A stretch of 64,000 nt of DNA from Haloferula rosea (GTDB lineage: Bacteria; Verrucomicrobiota; Verrucomicrobiia; Verrucomicrobiales; Akkermansiaceae). The stretch lies in assembly GCF_016595525.1 (NCBI RefSeq), contig NZ_JAENII010000002.1:434001-498000 (forward strand), in the 5' to 3' direction. Shown here in pieces: positions 13,954 through 24,015 of this stretch (the stretch's first letter is position 1; each line of letters opens with the position of its first letter). Below the pieces are notes generated by a model. The model did not search any database, was not told where the DNA came from, and saw only the letters and a program-made list of their open reading frames with translations. A program made the translations under genes and the position numbers.

Positions 13954-13966
13954 CCGTGCTCGGTCA
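13951..13966. terminator. Short hairpin spanning two convergent stop codons
   Basis: TGACCG-TGCT-CGGTCA forms a 6-bp stem with a 4-base loop. Its left arm begins with the TGA of guaA and its right arm ends in the TGA (complement) of the amidase gene. No T-run follows on either strand, so it could be a weak bidirectional barrier or chance. Confidence 0.35.
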
Positions 13967-14824
13967 GTCCTGATTCCATCGTTTCAGGATATCGCCATAG
14001 GCGTCGATCCTACGGTCTCGGAAGAAGGGCCAGATCCTGCGGAAATCCTCGACTTGCTTCAGGTTGATGTCGTGGAGGATGATCTCCTCCTGGTCCTCGG
14101 TGCCCTTGGCTTCAATCACGCCATAGGGATTGCAGACGAAGGACTGGCCCCAGAATTCCGTATCGGCTTCCTTGCCGATGCGATTCACGGCGGCAACATA
14201 GCATCCGTTGGCGACCGCATGCCCTCGCTGGACTGTCTCCCATGCACAGTGCTGGGCTGATCCGAGTTCATCCTTTTCCTCGGGAAGCCAACCAATCGCG
14301 GTTGGGTAGATCAGGATCTCGGCGCCGCCCAAGGCCATCAAGCGTGCCGCCTCCGGATACCATTGGTCCCAGCAGACAAGCACGCCCAAACGGCCGAACC
14401 TGGTGTTCCATACCGGCCAGGAAGTGTCTCCCGGCGTGAAGTAGAACTTCTCCTCAAATCCCGGATCCTGAGGAATGTGTGCCTTCCGGTAGATGCCAAG
14501 CATCGATCCATCCGCGTCGTGAACCACCGCCGTGTTGTGATACAGGCCGGGACCGCGCTTTTCGAAATGGGAGGATACAATGACGATCCCCAATTCTGTG
14601 GCCAGGTCGCCAAGTCTTTGTGTTGACGATCCGGGAATCTCCTCAGCCAGATCAAACTGGTCGGTGTCTTCGACGACGCAGAAATAGGGGGTCAGAAACA
14701 ACTCTTGGGTGACGACAATCTGGGCGCCATCTTTCGCGCTCTGGCGTATCAGTTCCTCATGGTGGGTGAGGGCGGTCTCCTGATCCGGAAACGCGCGGGA
14801 CTGAAGTAGGGCGATGCGAGGCAT
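13964..14824 (-). CDS. aguB: N-carbamoylputrescine amidase (carbon-nitrogen hydrolase)
   Basis: 286 residues of the nitrilase superfamily. The Glu-Lys-Cys catalytic set is visible: VTQELFLTPYF, YRKAHIPQDPGFEEKFYF and LVCWDQWYPEAARL. The family-specific segment PTAIGWLPEEKDELGSAQ matches plant and bacterial AguB, which converts N-carbamoylputrescine to putrescine, CO2 and ammonia. Its usual partner, agmatine deiminase (AguA), is not encoded in this window. Convergent with guaA. Confidence 0.92.
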   Translation of the reverse strand: MPRIALLQSRAFPDQETALTHHEELIRQSAKDGAQIVVTQELFLTPYFCVVEDTDQFDLAEEIPGSSTQRLGDLATELGIVIVSSHFEKRGPGLYHNTAVVHDADGSMLGIYRKAHIPQDPGFEEKFYFTPGDTSWPVWNTRFGRLGVLVCWDQWYPEAARLMALGGAEILIYPTAIGWLPEEKDELGSAQHCAWETVQRGHAVANGCYVAAVNRIGKEADTEFWGQSFVCNPYGVIEAKGTEDQEEIILHDINLKQVEDFRRIWPFFRDRRIDAYGDILKRWNQD

Positions 14825-14883: not shown

Positions 14884-15486
14884 CTAGAGTCGGCTTACAG
14901 CCCGAGCCACCGCGATGCCCACGCCGCCAATATCTTCAGGAAGGGGTTCCTTGCTGATCAGTAGACCGGCCTCGTCGATACTCATGACTTCACCTTGCTC
15001 GAAATCCACGATCACCTTCGGTCCGTCGAACCGCAGTGCACTTTCCCGGCTTTCAGCGTTGATGATCGCATCGGGTTGGAAGTCGCCTGATGAGGCCAGG
15101 ATTTCGGACATGTCCAGAGGTCCGCCGGTGACGTAGATGGGAATGGTCAGTTGGACCGCAGCGCTTTGGGTGCCACGGAAGGTCTCGGTGGTGTCCGAGG
15201 GGAGCATGGCGGGGATCGCGAAAGAAAGGACCCCGATGATGATGGCAGTGGCTCCAACGGCTGGAGTGGAGAAGAAACGCACGGCTCGCTGGAAGAAGTT
15301 TTCCACCGGTGCAGGTGGTTCGATCACCAATCGGCGAGTGGCTGGCGGCGCGGGTGCAAAGCGCTGCTGAAGATCGGCCAACAATCCGGCTGGGATGGCT
15401 GGAGCGACTTCATCGGGATGGAGGCGCAGGCTGCCTTGAAGGATCCGACGCGTGGTGTCGAGATGGTTTGGGAGGTTAACATCCAT
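14884..15486 (-). CDS. Single-TM protein downstream of a sigma factor, possible anti-sigma factor
   Basis: 200 residues with no domain I recognise. A soluble N-terminal part (about 1-70) is followed by one TM segment near 75-95 (VGATAIIIGVLSFAIPAML), then a roughly 100-residue presumably periplasmic part that mentions neither Cys nor His motifs. This arrangement, and the position 37 bases after a sigma-70-like gene, match anti-sigma factors. The N-terminal part lacks the HxxxCxxC zinc motif of ZAS anti-sigmas. The first 20 residues plus ELLADLQQRF-like helices could bind sigma, which is inference. A hairpin lies between the two genes. Confidence 0.6.
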   Translation of the reverse strand: MDVNLPNHLDTTRRILQGSLRLHPDEVAPAIPAGLLADLQQRFAPAPPATRRLVIEPPAPVENFFQRAVRFFSTPAVGATAIIIGVLSFAIPAMLPSDTTETFRGTQSAAVQLTIPIYVTGGPLDMSEILASSGDFQPDAIINAESRESALRFDGPKVIVDFEQGEVMSIDEAGLLISKEPLPEDIGGVGIAVARAVSRL

Positions 15487-15503
15487 GGCTATATCATCAA
15501 TCG

Positions 15504-15519
15504 CAGACCATCAGGTCTG
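15504..15519 (-). other. Small hairpin between the sigma gene and its membrane partner
   Basis: CAGACC-ATCA-GGTCTG, a 6-bp perfect stem in the 37-base gap. There is no T-tract in the direction of transcription, so it is more likely an mRNA processing or translation-balance element than a terminator. Confidence 0.3.
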
Positions 15520-15523
15520 ATTT

Positions 15524-16450
15524 TCAATAAACGAAACTTTCTCTAATTTTTTCCAAGGCCTCTTGAATCCGCTCATTCAGAACTCTTCGGCGCGTGGAGG
15601 CCGATGCATTGGATTTGACCCCGTATCGGCTGCAAAAATCGCTCCGCTCAATGAGATCCTGAATCGTTGCCGATTGGGCGACAAACAGGGTGTAGATCAG
15701 ATCCCATTCATCAGTGCTGAGGGCCTCGCGGCACTCGTGGTAAATGTGTTCGAAGTTGATGGTACCTGGCGCTGAACCACGATCTTCGAACTGCATCGGG
15801 CGGTCCGGGTCATCGTGAAGTGCGTCGAGGCTCTCCCCGCTGTTGGGTCGGTTCTTCAGGGTGGACTGACGCCGGTACCAGTCGATGGCGCGGAAGCCGA
15901 CGATGCGGGTGTGAAGGGGGATCAGTTCCTCAAATACCACGGGATCAAGGATCGGAGCCTTTTTGTCGTGTTCGCGAACGCGGGTGAGTTCGACCAAGGT
16001 ATCATTGAAAACCTCGTCGGCATCATGCCCCCGAATCCCTTTTCGTGCGAGAGTAGCGAGGGCGAGGGGGCGCAGGAGTTGAGGGAGACCATTCCATTCG
16101 CGGTCCTGAAAACCACGGTCAGCATCGAAACGCTGGAGCCGATCAAGATCCAGGTTCCTGTCGTAGCGGGAATCCTCCGGATCGTGGTGGACCTGGGGAT
16201 CAGAAACCTTGCGTCGTTTCTCGGCAACAAGTTGCCGGGTCGCTCGGGCAGCTTCTTCCAAGGCCTTGGCCGTGAATTCAGCTTCCGAGGGGAACTCGTC
16301 GTAGTCGAGCGACACGTTGCGGATGCATTGCTCGGCAATATGCTCCGCTTCGTCCTCAGAAATGAGGACGCCTTCGATGGGGCGTCTGGCACGGGTCCAA
16401 CAGGCCTGCCAACAGCGCTCCAACTGTGTGGGACATACAGTGGGGGACAT
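15524..16450 (-). CDS. Divergent sigma-70-family (ECF-like) RNA polymerase sigma factor
   Basis: 308 residues, much longer than a usual 180-200 residue ECF sigma. Residues about 125-200 look like region 2: LARKGIRGHDADEVFNDTLV is the 2.1-2.2-like helix, and FRAIDWYRRQST corresponds to the 2.3-2.4 part, where ECF sigmas have ARNLAIDWLRR. Residues about 236-305 would be region 4 (CREALSTDEWDLIYTLF, then an HTH-like YGVKSNASASTRRRVLNER). The first 120 residues are an extra charged helical domain (SEDEAEHIAEQCIRN). It sits between the CHAT protease gene (105 bases upstream) and the one-TM protein gene, apparently as one operon. The assignment rests on pattern resemblance and needs a profile search. 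Confidence 0.6.
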   Translation of the reverse strand: MSPTVCPTQLERCWQACWTRARRPIEGVLISEDEAEHIAEQCIRNVSLDYDEFPSEAEFTAKALEEAARATRQLVAEKRRKVSDPQVHHDPEDSRYDRNLDLDRLQRFDADRGFQDREWNGLPQLLRPLALATLARKGIRGHDADEVFNDTLVELTRVREHDKKAPILDPVVFEELIPLHTRIVGFRAIDWYRRQSTLKNRPNSGESLDALHDDPDRPMQFEDRGSAPGTINFEHIYHECREALSTDEWDLIYTLFVAQSATIQDLIERSDFCSRYGVKSNASASTRRRVLNERIQEALEKIRESFVY

Positions 16451-16555
16451 GGCTGGTGTGCCGCGAATAAATCCAAAAAAAGAAGGATTCGCAAGCTTCT
16501 AATGCATCTTAATTTTCAAGATGTTGGCCGAAACGTGGAAAAGTGGAGCAGATTT

Positions 16556-19228
16556 TTATTTTTTGATGTCCTTCCGAGCGTGTCGGAGAAGACGCTTGGT
16601 GAGCCAGCGAGCAGCTACCGCCGCCACTATGACCAAGACCAGGAAAGGCCATGTCGGTCGATGTGATTTCAACGGCTCGAGATCGATTTTGTCCCCTCCT
16701 TGGAGCGGGCCGGTTTGGCTCAGGTTGAAGGGGGCATAGCGGAGGACCGAAGCTTCGAAACCAGCATCCGTCGCTTTGGGCAAATATTCAGACTGTGTTT
16801 GCCAGAGGGCCTGCCCAATGCGCTCTGAATGAAGGGCCAACTGGTAGAACCTCTCCATGAATGCTGGGGTCGATTGATCGGAAACCGGCCACAAGGCGAC
16901 AGCGACTTCACTCGCACCTGCTTGAATGAAGGCGCGCTGGAGACCTAGCAGACCCTCACCGTTCACGGGCGTACCCGCCCCTGAGTCGCACGAGGAGAGA
17001 GTGACGAGTCGAGTGCCCTTGAGATCGAGTTCGGCGATCTCCTCTGGAAACAGCAGGTCATCGCCTGTTTCGGGCAGCTGCAGGTCCCATCGGGCGCCCC
17101 GGTAGAGGACGAGACCGCTCGAACGAAGGAGTTCAGCGCTTTCATCGAAATCCAATGCGGTGCTTGAGCTAGGAGCATCGGGCCCGGTGTAGAACGCGTG
17201 GCAACCGAGATGCAGCACGGAATTCGTATCCGGCAGCGAAGCCATCCTTTCCTCTGTTACTTCGCGACCTTGGAGGAAGAGTGAGTCTTTCGGAGCGAGT
17301 CGGCGAAGACTGTCCGCTTCGCGGGAAGTCCCTGGCATTGGCTCGAGATCCGAAAGAATTGCCTGCAGGGTGTGGGGTTCAGGAGGGCTCTCCGGCGACG
17401 GAAAGTCTGAGATGGTGAGGACCGTCCAAGGAGCTGAGTCCATTCGCTTCAATACCGAGGTGCGAGTGAGATCCCGTCCGCTGGCGACACGGGTGACTTG
17501 ATGCAAGCGGTGACACAGTGGCTTGCCTTCTGAATCGAGCAGCGCGGCAAGGGGGAGGAAGTGGAGTGCCCCGTCGGGGCTGAATGCCACATGGTCGACC
17601 TCGGGCGAGAGGAGGCGCGCGACAGGTTCCCAAAATTCATTTTCCAGCCCTTTGAGGATGATTTGGAGCGTCAAGGCAGGAGCTTTCGCTTCTTGATCGC
17701 CCGCGATGACTGCCGATTGCCACACCAATCGTTCCCGCATGACTGACAGCCAATCAAGGAGCTGGGACTCAGAACCGAGTGGAATCCACTGAGGTAGGTC
17801 CGTCGGTGTCACGAGAATCGCTCCATATTGAGGGCCAAGCTCTGAATCCAAAGGTTGAAAACGGCACGCGTCGATGAACGCGCTGTTCGGAGGCAAGGCA
17901 TTCTGGATCTGTGTCCAGTCCGGCAGAGGCTCTTGGGACAGGCCACCGAGCATGCTGTCCAAGAGTCGACCTTTTGATGCCAGAAGGACGTTCGCGATGG
18001 CAATCGCATCGCCTTCGATGCAAGGCAGGGAAACCAAATCGAAGCGCTCCAGAAAGTTCAGCCGGTCTCGCTCGCTGCCATGCAGCACAAGCTCTTCGAG
18101 GAGTTCGAGGCCGCTACGGGTGGCAGCGTCCACTCGCTCACGACTATCGTTCGATTCCATCAGGAGAGCGTTGCGTGCGAGATTGCGCAGGATCTCAGCG
18201 GTTCGCAGGTGGGCACCATCCCCATGGAGCTGCCGCTGGAGACGGAGAGCCCGCTGCAAGGCCTCATCCGCGGCGGGATAGTCGCCGAGCATCTGCTCTG
18301 CAGTTCCCAGATTATTGAAGTGGGTGATGAGTGCCGGGTGCTCAGGCCCCAATCGGGTAGTCGCGATCTCCAGAGCTTCCGAGAATGCCGCTTTGCCTTC
18401 CTCAGGATCGCCCTGTGAAAGGGCGAGAGTTCCCTGATTGTTGATGTATGGAAGTGCCTTGATCGGGTCCGAGTGGAACAATTCCCGTGCTTTATCGGCC
18501 ACGGCCCGCGTCTCAGCCTCACCCTCGACGCTATGACCCAGGCGGAGGAGGGAGAGAGCCCGTTGACTTCGAATGGATAGCGAGAGCTCGGGATCCTCCC
18601 GGCCCAGTTCCTGCGCCGCAGAAAAATCTTCAATCGCCTTCGCATGGCTTCCCAAGGTGTGTCGTAGGCGGCCTCGGTGGCTTAGAATGCGGGCCCTGCG
18701 GACGAATTGATCGGCCGGAGTCGCATCGAGTGCCTGATCCAGCAAGGCGCCCACCTCGGTGTAGCGCCCTTGCTGGAGGAGGTTCAAGGCGAGGTGGTCG
18801 AGGCTGTCGATCAGGCTCAGGCTGTTTGAGCTTTGCTCTTCTCGAGCCTTGATCACATCTCTGAGAATTTCCTCGGATCGCTCAAGCTGGCCCAGATCCT
18901 GGAGGCATAGGGCCAGAGCTTCCCGGGCGTCGGGTAAGCCAGGATCACCCCGTAAGAGCTCGCAAGCTCGTGTCAGATGGCGGATCGCCTCGTTGGCTTT
19001 GCCAAGCTGGCGTTCAACGATACCAAGGGCCTGAAGACTACGGCCGAGGGAGATTCCTGCATCGGGAGACGGGTTTTCATCAATCGCAAGCTCCCATTCC
19101 TGCACCAAGGCCTGTAATTCCAGCTCTGCTGCCGCTGGGTCCCCCATGTCCAATGCCCGTGCGGGGATGGAGAGTTGGATGAGTAAAGCGATGCAGAGCC
19201 AATGGCTGGTCCGGAAGGGGCTTCCCAC
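16556..19228 (-). CDS. CHAT-domain protease with TPR repeats, signal peptide and C-terminal TM anchor
   Basis: 890 residues. An N-terminal signal sequence (WLCIALLIQLSIPARALD) leads into about ten TPR-like repeats (about 30-370, for example GKANEAIRHLTRACELL and LGPEHPALITHFNNLGTAEQ). A CHAT (caspase/HetF with TPRs) domain covers about 520-835. The catalytic pair is intact: His677 in HLGCHAFYTG and Cys747 in TLSSCDSGAG. A TM segment near 861-876 precedes a basic cytoplasmic end (KRLLRHARKDIKK). Topology therefore puts TPRs and protease in the periplasm, anchored in the inner membrane. It is divergent from a TPS-domain exoprotein gene and leads an apparent operon with a sigma-like factor. The substrate is unknown; the exoprotein or the anti-sigma-like protein are candidates. 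Confidence 0.9.
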   Translation of the reverse strand: MGSPFRTSHWLCIALLIQLSIPARALDMGDPAAAELELQALVQEWELAIDENPSPDAGISLGRSLQALGIVERQLGKANEAIRHLTRACELLRGDPGLPDAREALALCLQDLGQLERSEEILRDVIKAREEQSSNSLSLIDSLDHLALNLLQQGRYTEVGALLDQALDATPADQFVRRARILSHRGRLRHTLGSHAKAIEDFSAAQELGREDPELSLSIRSQRALSLLRLGHSVEGEAETRAVADKARELFHSDPIKALPYINNQGTLALSQGDPEEGKAAFSEALEIATTRLGPEHPALITHFNNLGTAEQMLGDYPAADEALQRALRLQRQLHGDGAHLRTAEILRNLARNALLMESNDSRERVDAATRSGLELLEELVLHGSERDRLNFLERFDLVSLPCIEGDAIAIANVLLASKGRLLDSMLGGLSQEPLPDWTQIQNALPPNSAFIDACRFQPLDSELGPQYGAILVTPTDLPQWIPLGSESQLLDWLSVMRERLVWQSAVIAGDQEAKAPALTLQIILKGLENEFWEPVARLLSPEVDHVAFSPDGALHFLPLAALLDSEGKPLCHRLHQVTRVASGRDLTRTSVLKRMDSAPWTVLTISDFPSPESPPEPHTLQAILSDLEPMPGTSREADSLRRLAPKDSLFLQGREVTEERMASLPDTNSVLHLGCHAFYTGPDAPSSSTALDFDESAELLRSSGLVLYRGARWDLQLPETGDDLLFPEEIAELDLKGTRLVTLSSCDSGAGTPVNGEGLLGLQRAFIQAGASEVAVALWPVSDQSTPAFMERFYQLALHSERIGQALWQTQSEYLPKATDAGFEASVLRYAPFNLSQTGPLQGGDKIDLEPLKSHRPTWPFLVLVIVAAVAARWLTKRLLRHARKDIKK

Positions 19229-19379
19229 GATGGGTGAGCATAGCGATTCTCACTATTTTGGAAATCCTGAATTTCCTGTGCGATTGAAGACCTTACAGGA
19301 TCGGTCGAACCCTCCGGCCAGTCCCCCAAATCGGGGTCGCCCGCGAATCCCGACTCAGCTGCATTCCGCAATTCCCCGT

Positions 19380-19433
19380 CCCTCAATAATCAATGAATAT
19401 TAAAAAGTTCTTTGAGGGCAGAGCCATTCATTG
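19380..19433. promoter_or_regulatory. Overlapping inverted repeats in the CHAT/TpsA divergent promoter region
   Basis: Two interleaved perfect inverted repeats: CCCTCAA (19380-19386) with TTGAGGG (19412-19418), and CAATGAAT (19391-19398) with ATTCATTG (19426-19433). They sit in an AT-rich island in the 255-base space between the CHAT gene and the TPS exoprotein gene. The arms are mutually exclusive as RNA hairpins, and as DNA they could be two operators. Function is inferred from position only. Confidence 0.45.
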
Positions 19434-19483
19434 TAAATATTCGCTAGCTCGCACCCACGAGTTTCCAAAATCTCCCTTGGATC

Positions 19484-20575
19484 ATGAAAACTGTCCCACT
19501 CCCCTGGAGGGCGCTCACGGCGACCCTCTGCGTATCCTTTTTGCCTGCCCAAGGCCCCGTTCTCAGCACGCCTGGAAGCGCGACTTGGGAGACGATCGAC
19601 ACGCCCAGCGGTAGTCGGACGAATTTCACAATTTTTGACGACACGGTTTTTGACTGGGCGCATTTGAATCTGGCGGAAGGGAGCGAGCTGTATTTCGATT
19701 TTGTGGGTGGCAACAGCGTTCTGAACTATCTGACAGGTTCCGGGAGTCACACGATTGCGGGGCAGGTTGGATCAAATGGTTCGGTGGGCTTCTTTGCTCC
19801 GAATGCAGACTTGAACATTACCGGCAATATCGTGGCTGACAGTGTTACGATTGCGACGCTCGATGTGGCGCCAGGAGACGTTCAGGACGGTGGGGGATTT
19901 CGGCTTACTGGCCCAACCGGGTGGAATCGATTGAGGATTTCCGGCAATATCGAGGCGACCGGGGGCGATGTCGTCATTGCCGGCAGGGACGTGAGCATCA
20001 TGGAATCTGCCCAGCTTTCTGCCGCTGGAGCGATCATGATCGGTGGAGGAACCGACGTGAGCATCGCGGGTTCGGGAGCGACTCGCTTGACCGAGGCGAG
20101 TGGTTCGGGATTTGTCCTTCACTTGGGCGAAACGCGGGCCAATCGGATCGAAGTTGCGGCCGGCAGTGAAATCATCAACCGTGGACGCTTGGGTGAGCAG
20201 GGCGCGAAGGTGTTCCTCTCGGTTGGCGAGGATGGCAAAATCACCAACGAAGGAACCGGGATCATCGTTCCGAACGCTGTGTTCGACGGGGCTTTTGATC
20301 CGAAGGGGACTCCAATTGATCCGAAGGATGGCGATGCAGCAGCGGCAATCAATGAGAGCAATCTGAAGGTGCCAGAGTTGCGACGCCCCAATGGTTCGCG
20401 CGTTGTCAGGGCAAAGTCGGTGAACTACACCACGACCATTTCCGCCTCAAGTGACGGCGCGCGCGACTCTTCTTCAAAGCCAAAGAGCACCGTGGCCAAA
20501 AACCGGAACAAACCGTCGCTCATGCGCCAGTCGTCATTTTTCAGCATGCGGGGTGGAAAGAAGGCGAAGCCTTAG
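19484..20575 (+). CDS. Small two-partner-secretion exoprotein (TPS/filamentous-haemagglutinin N-terminal domain)
   Basis: 363 residues. A signal peptide (ALTATLCVSFLPAQG) is followed by a recognisable TPS domain: FDWAHLNLAEGSELYFDF, then NSVLNYLTGSGSHTIAGQV and GSVGFFAPNADLNITGNI. These match the F-L-L-G...N-LNRVTG...I-G...G-V-L-NP-G pattern of the FHA N-terminal domain, though the NP becomes AP. Beta-helix-like repeats continue to about 260 (GGDVVIAGRDVSIME, IMIGGGTDVSIAGSG). The tail is charged and basic (SSKPKSTVAKNRNK...KKAKP). TpsA proteins are usually well over 1000 residues, so this one is little more than the secretion domain. Its likely transporter is the TpsB gene 1.8 kb downstream. 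Confidence 0.8.
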   Translation: MKTVPLPWRALTATLCVSFLPAQGPVLSTPGSATWETIDTPSGSRTNFTIFDDTVFDWAHLNLAEGSELYFDFVGGNSVLNYLTGSGSHTIAGQVGSNGSVGFFAPNADLNITGNIVADSVTIATLDVAPGDVQDGGGFRLTGPTGWNRLRISGNIEATGGDVVIAGRDVSIMESAQLSAAGAIMIGGGTDVSIAGSGATRLTEASGSGFVLHLGETRANRIEVAAGSEIINRGRLGEQGAKVFLSVGEDGKITNEGTGIIVPNAVFDGAFDPKGTPIDPKDGDAAAAINESNLKVPELRRPNGSRVVRAKSVNYTTTISASSDGARDSSSKPKSTVAKNRNKPSLMRQSSFFSMRGGKKAKP

Positions 20576-20599
20576 GGAAAGGCAACCTCTCACCAGCAC

Positions 20600-22069
20600 T
20601 TACTCTGCAGCCAAGCGTGCAGGGATCCACTCGAGCTTGTAGAAGCAACGAACACCTACTCTGGGTCGAGGCTGAACCTGGATGTTTGCAGTGCTCTCGG
20701 CTTCTTCATACTCGACGATGGGTTCACCTGTCAGGAGATCAAATCGGAGTGAATCAACGGGGCCACCTGAGACGGGAACCGGCGCGTCCTCAGTCAAGAC
20801 CGCATCGTCCAAGATGGTGATGGCCACCCGGCCTTCTTGCTTCTGACCAATATGGACATACCTCTCGACCTCCATCCAATCCTTGAGGTTCGTGGAGCAA
20901 AGTAGTCTCCACGAACTTCCATCGCGAAGTGTTGAGGTCCCACTCGTATTGAGCAGGTCTTCACTGATGGTGAAATCGAGCATCGTGAAACCATTGGCAC
21001 GCCGAACCGCAATGGCCGGGGGGGTGCTGGATGAATTCAGGGGGTCGTAGCCGAAGAATCGCTCCAGTTCATCGGGAGTGCCGTCCGAGTCGAAGTCGTT
21101 GTCGAGTTGGACAACTCGCACCTTGCTCTCGGAGTCGCTCGTATACGCCCGAGCCTTGAGAAGGTTCTCCACCTCGGATGGGTTGAGGCCCGGTTGTCTG
21201 CCGAGCTCTGCGAGGGCCGTGGCTGCGACAATCGCAGTTGCGGGACTCGTGCCCGTCATGGGAGTGGTCTGGCCGACTGAATGACTTTCAGGGTGGAAGG
21301 TTTGCACGTTGACACCCGGCGCGTGGACGTCCACCGCATCGCCCGAGTTTGAGCTCGCAAGAGGGGCATGGCCTTGGTCGGAAGCGCCAACGCAAATCAC
21401 GCCATCCATGGTGCCATAAGCAGCTGGGATGTATGCTGAGGCATCCGAGCCTTCATTCCCCGCCGCAACCACGACGGTCATGCCGCGTCCGACTGCTTCG
21501 CTGATTCTCGCCTCAAGGAATGTGCTGGATGCCGGCTCGCTCGAACCATTGGCAATGCAGACCACCGAAGGTGTTCCTGGGTTATCAATGAAATGATTGA
21601 TGGCCTCCCCGAGTGCGGTGACCAATAGCCCGACCGTCGAAGACGTCTCCTCACCGTCAGGGTAGATGTCAAAGCTGACGACTTCGATCTCGGTTCCTCT
21701 GGCAACCCCTGCCTCGGGACCGGCAATCACGGAGAGCACCTGAGTGCCATGGGTGAAGGCGCTTGAGCTCGTTGGGTCACCTTGGCCCCGGATGAGTTGC
21801 GAATCCTCCAAAGTGAGGATGTTGTTGGTGTCGAACCAACCCGACGCGTTGTCGACCGCAGTGTCGATCAAATAGAGTCGGACCTTGTGAGGTGTTTCCG
21901 GAAACACGTAGCTCAATTCCGGAGCTGCCGTGTCCGCGTCGTTGAGGGCCGAAAGCACCCAGTCCGTCGCCTCTTGTGAGGCGTGCGGCGTGATGGGAAT
22001 GGGTTCTTTGCCTGCCAACGGCAGGATGCCTGCGCAGGCTGTGAAGAAACGGAGAAAACGTATCAGCAT
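20600..22069 (-). CDS. Secreted subtilisin-family (S8) serine peptidase
   Basis: 489 residues. A signal peptide (FLRFFTACAGILPLAG) precedes a catalytic domain of about 60-310 with the full triad: Asp69 (YLIDTAVD), His107 (FTHGTQVLSVIAG), Ser275 (MTGTSPATAIVAA), and the oxyanion Asn205 (VAAGNEGSDA). After the domain comes a calcium-binding-type stretch (DNDFDSDGTPDELERFFGYD), then a roughly 130-residue C-terminal domain of a type common in PVC secreted proteins (LLCSTNLKDWMEV). It lies between the TPS exoprotein and its transporter, convergent with the first and divergent from the second. By analogy with SphB1, it could mature the exoprotein. Confidence 0.92.
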   Translation of the reverse strand: MLIRFLRFFTACAGILPLAGKEPIPITPHASQEATDWVLSALNDADTAAPELSYVFPETPHKVRLYLIDTAVDNASGWFDTNNILTLEDSQLIRGQGDPTSSSAFTHGTQVLSVIAGPEAGVARGTEIEVVSFDIYPDGEETSSTVGLLVTALGEAINHFIDNPGTPSVVCIANGSSEPASSTFLEARISEAVGRGMTVVVAAGNEGSDASAYIPAAYGTMDGVICVGASDQGHAPLASSNSGDAVDVHAPGVNVQTFHPESHSVGQTTPMTGTSPATAIVAATALAELGRQPGLNPSEVENLLKARAYTSDSESKVRVVQLDNDFDSDGTPDELERFFGYDPLNSSSTPPAIAVRRANGFTMLDFTISEDLLNTSGTSTLRDGSSWRLLCSTNLKDWMEVERYVHIGQKQEGRVAITILDDAVLTEDAPVPVSGGPVDSLRFDLLTGEPIVEYEEAESTANIQVQPRPRVGVRCFYKLEWIPARLAAE

Positions 22070-22332
22070 GAAAGTTGGCGGTCTTTAACGGGTTGATATA
22101 GGGGATTCGGAATGGTGGGTCGAGGATATACTAACATGATTGCTATATCTTAAAATATTGTAAAAAAGATATATCAGGCGGTCTTCAATTGATGAAAATA
22201 CATAAAATAAACACATATTGAACATATTGAGAACTTGGTTGTCCGTGCCTACTGGATTTTGCCTTGGGTTGATCGATGCAAGGGGCTAAAAGTCGGGTGG
22301 TTCAAATCTCATCGCTGCGAACCCCTTGAATC
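22070..22332. promoter_or_regulatory. AT-rich divergent promoter region with repeats (subtilase/TpsB)
   Basis: 263 bases without a gene. They hold an 8-bp perfect inverted repeat (TATATCTT at 22144-22151, AAGATATA at 22166-22173) around an AT-only loop, two tandem copies of ACATATTGA (22213-22221 and 22222-22230), and a CAAGGGG/CCCCTTG pair (about 22274-22328) whose second arm ends just before the TpsB ATG. These could be operators for opposite promoters plus a translation-control stem. No known consensus is matched. Confidence 0.45.
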
Positions 22333-24015
22333 ATGGGCAGTCGAACTAAGAATAATGTGCTCCGAACCTTGTGTGGCTTGGGGATGGTCTGCATGGTGCA
22401 GGGGCAGCTCCTGCCCGGAGTGGATCCCCGACTACCTGCTCCTCAGCCTGTGGAATCGATCCCCGGGGTTGTCAGCGAAGAGGTGCAGGCGCTGGAGAAC
22501 GATCCGATTCTTATCGAAGTTTTTTTGGGAATCCGGCTCGATACTTGGTCGCAAGAAGGAAATTTTGAGTCGGTTTCGTCCGGTTTGAAGGCAAGGGATG
22601 GTCTTCTGGTGCCATCCCCGAAGACCCTCGCTGCGCGACTCGAGACCTTTCTGGGGCATTCACTCAAGCAGTCGGATCTCTGGCGGATCGGTGATATTCT
22701 GCTCAGCCACTACGATATCGAGGGTTATCCCGTGGTGAACGTGGAGGCACCGGAGCAGAGCTTTGAAGGAGGTCAACTCGTGTTGATTGTTGAGCTGGGC
22801 CGATTTGCCAGGGTCGGAGTCACTCGTCCCATTTACGGGTGCCCCGAGGTCATTGAGGCGGGCCTTCACCTTCGTGAAGGAGAGGTCCTGCGTCGTTCGG
22901 AGATTGATGACCAACTCGGGTGGTATGGTCGGTCGATTTTCAGGCGGCCCCGATTGTTCGTGTCTCCCGGTGACGAGCCTGCAACCGCGGATGTTTTGAT
23001 TGGTCTCGAGGAATCCAGGCCATGGAGGGTGACGACGGGCTACGACAACAGTGGTACTGACCTCCTTGGCAAGGACCGGTTTCAGCTTGGTGTTGCAGGC
23101 ATGACGCCTGCCGAGCATGTGATTTCATGGCAGACCGTCGTTGGGATGCCGGTGTCCTCACTGAGTGCCCACGCGTTGAGTTGGGAGATTCCGCTGCATC
23201 GCTATCACCAGACGATTCGCTTCGATGCGGCCTACGCGAGGGTGGATGATCGCTATTTGTCGAACGGACTTCCGCTCGACAACCAGGGAGCTTCCTGGGC
23301 GGTTTCGGGACTCCATCGATTCCAGTTGCCGTCATATCGCGGGTGGAGGCACAACGTGTTGTCAGGGTTCGAGGTGAAGGGGACAGATCAGTTCGTCCTG
23401 TTCGGATCGGGGAGGTTCGCACCCGGGGAAGTGCGGTTCGTGCATGCGAAGGTGGGCTACGACCTTCATCGTAGTTGGGAGAATGCCGGGGTCGGTCTGG
23501 ATGCCTCGGTAGTGGCTTCTCCGGGAAACTTGATTTCCGGGAATGATGATATCGACTTCAAGGCATATGATTTTTCAGCTGACTCAAGCTATGTGATTGC
23601 CAGGGCAGCTGGACAGGGTTGGTGGTCACCGGGAGGAGATTGGCGGATCGGTCTACGGGGAGCCATCCAGTTGGCCGACTCAAGACTCCTTCCTTCGGAG
23701 CAATTCGCGGCTGGAGGGTATCAGACGGTAAGAGGTGTATCCGAGCGTGAGTACATTGCCGACCAAGGATGGCATTCGAGTCTTGAGGTGTTCACCCCGG
23801 CCTGGAGGCCGATCAACCGATGTCAGGTTCGTTTTCTCGGCTTCCTTGATCATGCGTCTTTGGGAAATCGCGGGGGTGCTTCGACTTCACTCACCGGCAC
23901 CGGAGTCGGGTTGAGGTTGATGTTCGGCCGTTGGGTGGACCTTCGACTTGACCACGGTTGGCGGCTGGACGAGCCCGGCGGTCAAACGCACCTTGGGCTC
24001 CGTTTCACCTACTGA
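22333..24015 (+). CDS. TpsB/FhaC-type outer-membrane transporter (ShlB/HecB family)
   Basis: 560 residues. A signal peptide (LCGLGMVCMVQGQLLPG) is followed by a Pro-rich linker, two POTRA-like domains (about 45-130 and 145-220, with SHYDIEGYPVVNVEAPEQ and LRRSEIDDQLGWY), then a 16-strand barrel to a C-terminal aromatic (HLGLRFTY). A VRG(Y/F)-like lid motif is present (YQTVRGVSEREYIAD), the hallmark of Omp85/TpsB proteins. It exports TpsA proteins across the outer membrane; the TPS-domain protein upstream is the obvious client. ATG 22333 gives a normal TpsB N-terminus. Confidence 0.9.
   Translation: MGSRTKNNVLRTLCGLGMVCMVQGQLLPGVDPRLPAPQPVESIPGVVSEEVQALENDPILIEVFLGIRLDTWSQEGNFESVSSGLKARDGLLVPSPKTLAARLETFLGHSLKQSDLWRIGDILLSHYDIEGYPVVNVEAPEQSFEGGQLVLIVELGRFARVGVTRPIYGCPEVIEAGLHLREGEVLRRSEIDDQLGWYGRSIFRRPRLFVSPGDEPATADVLIGLEESRPWRVTTGYDNSGTDLLGKDRFQLGVAGMTPAEHVISWQTVVGMPVSSLSAHALSWEIPLHRYHQTIRFDAAYARVDDRYLSNGLPLDNQGASWAVSGLHRFQLPSYRGWRHNVLSGFEVKGTDQFVLFGSGRFAPGEVRFVHAKVGYDLHRSWENAGVGLDASVVASPGNLISGNDDIDFKAYDFSADSSYVIARAAGQGWWSPGGDWRIGLRGAIQLADSRLLPSEQFAAGGYQTVRGVSEREYIADQGWHSSLEVFTPAWRPINRCQVRFLGFLDHASLGNRGGASTSLTGTGVGLRLMFGRWVDLRLDHGWRLDEPGGQTHLGLRFTY

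Follow-up and report, generated by a model that had tools for sequence, protein, structure and literature searches.

A six-gene cassette of Haloferula rosea and related bacteria that encodes a TPR-CHAT protease, an ECF-like sigma factor and a subtilase with a minimal two-partner secretion system

TPR-CHAT proteases are known mainly for cytosolic effector roles in immunity or development. In the DegS/RseA/RpoE system of E. coli, a periplasmic protease recognises an exported protein by its C-terminal tail and cuts a one-TM anti-sigma factor. The TPR-CHAT protease Csx29 of the type III-E CRISPR CASP-sigma system regulates transcription by cleaving the sigma inhibitor Csx30 (PMC10028731). In P. 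aeruginosa, the ECF sigma factor VreI and the anti-sigma factor VreR regulate the two-partner secretion (TPS) gene pdtA (PMC4971064), and in Bordetella the TPS exoprotein FhaB is acted on by the surface subtilisin SphB1 and by the periplasmic proteases CtpA and DegP (PMC8263021).

The locus described here resembles each of these systems in part. As in the Csx29/Csx30/CASP-sigma system, the genes of a TPR-CHAT protease, an ECF sigma factor and a putative protein inhibitor of that factor lie together. However, Csx29 is cytosolic and is activated by RNA via Cas7-11, whereas the CHAT protein here is apparently exported and membrane-anchored and is accompanied by a one-TM putative anti-sigma factor and a TPS system. 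Its export signal and C-terminal TM segment set it apart from the Craspase of type III-E CRISPR (a cytosolic TPR-CHAT protein with Cas7-11/gRAMP), and no CRISPR gene was found among the cassette genes or their annotated neighbours. As in VreI/VreR-PdtA, an ECF sigma factor and a putative membrane anti-sigma factor occur with a TPS exoprotein, but VreI is part of a cell-surface signalling system with a VreA component, and we know of no CHAT or S8 partner of VreI/VreR-PdtA. Signalling of the FecIR type was rejected for the locus, as the one-TM family has no FecR match in Pfam and the outer-membrane partner is a TpsB transporter, not a TonB receptor. As in FhaB/FhaC, a TPS exoprotein is found with a subtilisin and a predicted periplasmic protease, both with presumed substrates here; FhaB, however, is a very large adhesin that has a prodomain at its C terminus, its periplasmic proteases are not CHAT proteins, and that system has no dedicated sigma factor. 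Lastly, DegS is a PDZ serine protease, whereas the candidate for its role here is a TPR caspase-like protease.

The components and logic of the cassette have known analogues, and parts of it are published (VreI/VreR-PdtA, PMC4971064; Csx29, PMC10028731), which qualifies the statement of an earlier note on this DNA that no description with sigma and S8 partners was known; the whole six-gene combination was indeed not found in the literature searched. That search returned no pairing of a CHAT domain with two-partner secretion and none of Verrucomicrobia with two-partner secretion and a subtilisin, which is weak evidence as the search covered only a minority of subscription journals. The same literature gave no confirmation of CHAT-TPS neighbours in cyanobacteria, which the note had taken as known.

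The window is a stretch of 64,000 nucleotides, and the cassette occupies positions 14884-24015 of it. The open reading frames confirm six genes at the positions and on the strands first proposed, and the identities proposed for their products were borne out. With the window protein alone as query, Pfam gave no match for the one-TM protein (TM), the sigma factor (SIG) or the exoprotein (TpsA); the sigma and TPS assignments thus failed the simplest profile search but were rescued by fold comparison and by family profiles. AguB, GuaA, EamA and LigA were considered as parts of the cassette and rejected, all being flanking genes. An N-carbamoylputrescine amidase-like gene (13964-14824) flanks the cassette, and its position is kept in many congeners, which indicates a fixed chromosomal site.

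SIG (15524-16450, minus strand, 308 aa) was modelled with AF2 from an alignment of 21 homologues (pLDDT 84). The model has an extra N-terminal helical domain (residues 1-98), a sigma2 domain (99-202) and a sigma4 domain (226-308). The sigma2 domain superposes on that of SigW, RpoE and SigK (rmsd 2.2-3.3 A, Z about 10), and the sigma4 domain on that of SigD4 and SigL (rmsd 2.1-2.6 A, Z about 7); helical bundles may reach such Z scores by chance, but nearly all of the structures listed are sigma factors and the domain order is correct. The sequence signal is weak, with Sigma70_r2 matched weakly by 10 of 21 family members. The best E-value from Foldseek was only 0.03. The profile search of the PDB with the SIG alignment returned only ribosomal L13/L16, taken as chance matches; the identity of SIG was settled by fold comparison. 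SIG models as an ECF-like factor, with sigma2 and sigma4 folds, no sigma3 and the additional N-terminal domain. This last domain looked by eye like a second sigma2, for which profile-profile comparison gave no support. It is a conserved helical domain in which W14, P24 and R79 are invariant and an RRPxEGVL block is well conserved.

No sigma promoter common to the cassette genes was found, as spaced dyads across five genes and across clades do not beat shuffled sequences. Alignment of the upstream regions showed conserved AT-rich blocks inside each promoter, none of them common to several genes above the null. One such region is the AT-rich divergent interval between S8 and TpsB (22070-22332), which is kept in blocks among congeners. 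SIG may regulate its own cassette. The divergent SIG/TpsA intergenic region of eight other loci (L053, L055-L060 and L062) carries a strongly conserved TTAGAAGCTTGCAAAGCATTCTTTTTT-like block with the near-palindrome GCTTGCAAAGC, a possible regulator site.

The TM gene (14884-15486, minus strand, 200 aa) adjoins SIG. Its product has an N-terminal part of about 70 aa, one predicted TM segment at about residues 77-95 and a C-terminal part of about 100 aa. A single TM segment, beginning at residues 60-77, is predicted in 21 of 21 homologues, and the gene directly follows SIG at 35 of the 38 loci with SIG; of the other three loci, two are near contig ends. A single-TM gene directly after a sigma gene is the usual arrangement for a membrane anti-sigma factor. 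The protein is presumably oriented N-in, given the position of the TM segment and the absence of a signal peptide, which would put its N-terminal part in the cytoplasm and its C-terminal part in the periplasm. No known anti-sigma domain (zf-HC2, FecR, RskA etc.) was matched in Pfam by 21 members, a search that can miss divergent domains, and a PDB profile search with the family gave no match; for these reasons the anti-sigma role stays putative. The TM protein is best read, from its topology and gene position, as the cognate anti-sigma factor of SIG.

TpsA (19484-20575, plus strand, 363 aa) is a minimal TPS exoprotein, consisting of a signal peptide, a beta-helix TPS domain and a disordered basic tail. 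Its family profile matches the TPS domains of HxuA (6e-19), EtpA (2e-18) and HMW1 (3e-18), its AF2 model is a beta-helix that Foldseek matches to the HxuA TPS domain (7e-8), and three of its relatives match PF05860 (best 1.2e-13). TpsB (22333-24015, plus strand, 560 aa) is an outer-membrane transporter with a ShlB barrel (PF03865, 7e-14) and a POTRA domain (POTRA_2, 1e-4, just under the cut-off in the window protein). The two proteins have the domains of a two-partner (type Vb) secretion pair.

The tails of TpsA proteins close with a motif of the [KR]xx[SA]FF type and a basic stretch, which are conserved across families f1-f4; in the window the motif is RQSSFFSMRGG (residues 348-358; 20525-20557, plus strand). 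It is kept in three families beyond the genus of the window, though the TPS domain itself retains only about 20-26% identity in them. In 18 genomes of the genus, a DNA search pattern encoding SFFGxRGG gave 12 matches, all 12 inside TpsA tails, as compared to one match for the reversed control pattern. Within the genus this motif is found only in TpsA and is thus not a genome-wide sorting signal, which rules out a general C-terminal sorting tag there. Its conservation, its place in a disordered region and its restriction to one protein suggest a recognition element for a partner or a protease.

The small size of TpsA also bears on a role in anti-phage defence or contact-dependent inhibition (CDI), with CHAT or TpsA as the effector. 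Bacterial conflict systems do employ CHAT proteases, and CDI belongs among the TPS systems. However, CDI relies on a large CdiA with a C-terminal toxin and an immunity protein, whereas TpsA has only about 360 residues and no toxin domain, no immunity gene is present, PADLOC gives no match and both proteases appear to be exported. We regard such a role as highly improbable.

The CHAT gene (16556-19228, minus strand, 890 aa) encodes a TPR-CHAT caspase-like protease with a PF12770 match of 167 bits (7.5e-49) in addition to its TPRs. It is the only CHAT gene in the source genome (4.68 Mb, 69 contigs), which its named relatives place in Verrucomicrobiales close to Luteolibacter/Neoluteolibacter and Haloferula. 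The His/Cys dyad of the domain (H677 and C747) is invariant in 37 of 37 homologues. The apparently secreted subtilase S8 (20600-22069, minus strand, 489 aa) matches Peptidase_S8 (PF00082, 1e-21), and its Asp/His/Ser triad (D69, H107 and S275) is invariant in 24 of 24 homologues. Both active sites are therefore intact, as had been read from the window sequence. Cassette subtilases of other clades (L034:10720-13806, L039:3983-7249, L066:4409-7207 and L032:5083-8049) carry an N-terminal extension of about 500-600 aa, for which Pfam gave no match above cut-off and at most sub-threshold SBBP.

A hydrophobic N-terminal signal is found in most CHAT homologues, and those closest to the window also have a C-terminal TM segment and a basic end, as does the window protein. 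Some homologues have no C-terminal TM segment, and some of those have lipobox-like N-termini. The protease domain is predicted, from the signal sequence and the C-terminal TM segment, to face the periplasm as a membrane-anchored enzyme, which supports the periplasmic cysteine protease proposed in the earlier note.

All six genes occur in one locus at 16 loci in 15 genomes (G000, G002, G003, G006, G008, G010, G011, G013 twice, G014, G015, G017, G042, G103, G108 and G113), which represent five genera and four families. Gene order and orientation vary among these loci, with TpsA placed either between CHAT and S8 or between SIG and CHAT. The six genes are co-directional in G108 and G113, which belong to other families; there SIG-TM-TpsB-S8 come first, and TpsA and CHAT follow in one order or the other. 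Among 145 related genomes, CHAT (counted as P0003 relatives) is present in 41, SIG in 36 and both in 35. A full-length small TpsA occurs in 34 of the 36 genomes with SIG, a figure that would rise if the divergent TpsA genes of G108 and G113 were counted, and in one other genome (G080, 86% complete). The cassette S8 subfamily (E<=1e-50) was found in 28 genomes, all of which have SIG, and a divergent S8 adjoins CHAT in five further genomes with SIG. TpsB matches stronger than 1e-150 all come from genomes with SIG. These counts are partly phylogenetic and not independent, and presence is patchy by genus while spanning four families. Among 289 genomes sampled more widely across the phylum, SIG was confined to the same order, apart from one marginal match outside it. 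The linkage of the six genes is far above chance, and the earlier expectation that they would co-occur repeatedly in relatives held, both in the 16 loci and in the near-total co-occurrence by genome. A second, divergent SIG-TM-TpsB group was observed at L108:2612-5718 in G024, alongside another copy of the cassette elsewhere in that genome.

A conserved island, in which surface-protein genes (a TPS adhesin, unrelated envelope proteases and a sigma factor) travel together and act independently, could also produce linkage, and several congeners do have the genes spread over two or three sites. That the genes would be found apart in relatives had been named as grounds for refutation, and physically this is true of some congeners. 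However, the same genomes retain all of the genes, as fixed sub-pairs: SIG-TM with TpsA (e.g. G007, G009, G012, G032, G059 and G118) and S8-TpsB (e.g. G002, G004, G007, G009, G012, G027, G039, G048 and G051), and a divergent S8-TpsB pair persists where it is unlinked from CHAT. The functional link is thus strengthened by the split genomes. In addition, the genes are gained and lost jointly across the 145 genomes, the six genes have pairwise distances that correlate at 0.88-0.97, and in genomes with two or three cassettes all genes present in a given cassette fall in matching clades. An island of independent genes is already disfavoured by this evidence and we consider it improbable; co-occurrence, persisting sub-pairs, correlated distances and matching clades indicate instead that the cassette is a real functional unit.

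In three congeners (G007, G009 and G012), CHAT has none of the other cassette genes at its locus and SIG-TM-TpsA lie elsewhere. The lone CHAT at L049, L050 and L061, from three congeners, is about 50% identical, with SIG-TM-TpsA and S8-TpsB elsewhere in the same genomes; its neighbour is a DUF3108 protein in L049 and a protein of the same size in L050 and L061.

We propose, as a reading to which we give a little less than an even chance, that the cassette is a self-contained, self-regulating TPS module in which membrane-anchored proteolysis in the periplasm frees an ECF sigma factor. The small beta-helical TpsA would cross the outer membrane via TpsB, while the one-TM protein, as anti-sigma factor, would keep SIG at the inner membrane. 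CHAT, held in the periplasm by its C-terminal TM segment (or perhaps by a lipid in some relatives), would sense the state of TpsA, probably by binding with its TPRs the conserved basic SFF tail, which would leave the periplasm last. The protease would then cleave the periplasmic part of the anti-sigma factor, or the TpsA tail, so that sigma is freed and the cassette transcribed. S8 may mature or release TpsA. Each of these steps has a published precedent, in Csx29 (PMC10028731), in VreI and pdtA (PMC4971064) and in FhaB (PMC8263021). This reading is based on the gene identities, the intact catalytic residues, the co-inheritance, the topology predicted from sequence and the conserved tail; from these we infer the sigma/anti-sigma binding, the substrates of both proteases, the signal and the sigma regulon. 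Several results count against it, namely that no common promoter dyad was found, that the TM protein has no known anti-sigma domain, that CHAT is alone in three congeners, that some CHAT homologues have no C-terminal TM segment and that the co-occurrence by genome is partly phylogenetic.

The main rival is a maturation module like that of FhaB, in which periplasmic CHAT and surface or secreted S8 both process TpsA and the sigma/anti-sigma pair is not a CHAT substrate and only switches expression upon another envelope signal. We think this quite possible, if clearly short of an even chance. Bordetella FhaB is processed stepwise by periplasmic DegP and CtpA and by surface SphB1 (PMC8263021). The S8-TpsB pairing kept even when unlinked is in keeping with such a module, as is a TpsA tail that is conserved and disordered, which is expected of a processed or retained tail. 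Also, CHAT adjoins TpsA without SIG in two genomes of genus g11 (L063 and L065). However, at L048 and L057 CHAT is linked to SIG-TM with no S8 or TpsB nearby, and TpsA is a very small protein that lacks a large prodomain. As a separate observation, a gene beside CHAT/TpsA at L063:10917-12866 encodes an ankyrin-repeat protein that also carries a fused L,D-transpeptidase (YkuD) domain.

The proteolytic module admits a more specific form, a secretion-monitoring circuit in which the exported TPR-CHAT protease reads the SFF tail of its own TpsA and cuts the one-TM anti-sigma factor, and the ECF sigma factor couples expression to export. In this full form the proposal is unlikely, in our judgement; if true, the circuit would parallel DegS/RseA with a caspase-fold protease and would parallel Csx29/CASP-sigma outside the cytoplasm.

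In the cassette, a TPR-CHAT protein that is periplasmic by its sequence is accompanied by a minimal TPS exoprotein and a putative sigma/anti-sigma pair. Should proteolysis control the sigma factor, the logic that leads from TPR-CHAT to sigma in Csx29/CASP-sigma would extend to transmembrane signalling, and the cassette would offer a compact genetic model of the way in which bacteria sense the export status of a secreted type Vb protein. Because the SFF tail is conserved and the genes are almost always inherited together, this hypothesis can be tested directly.
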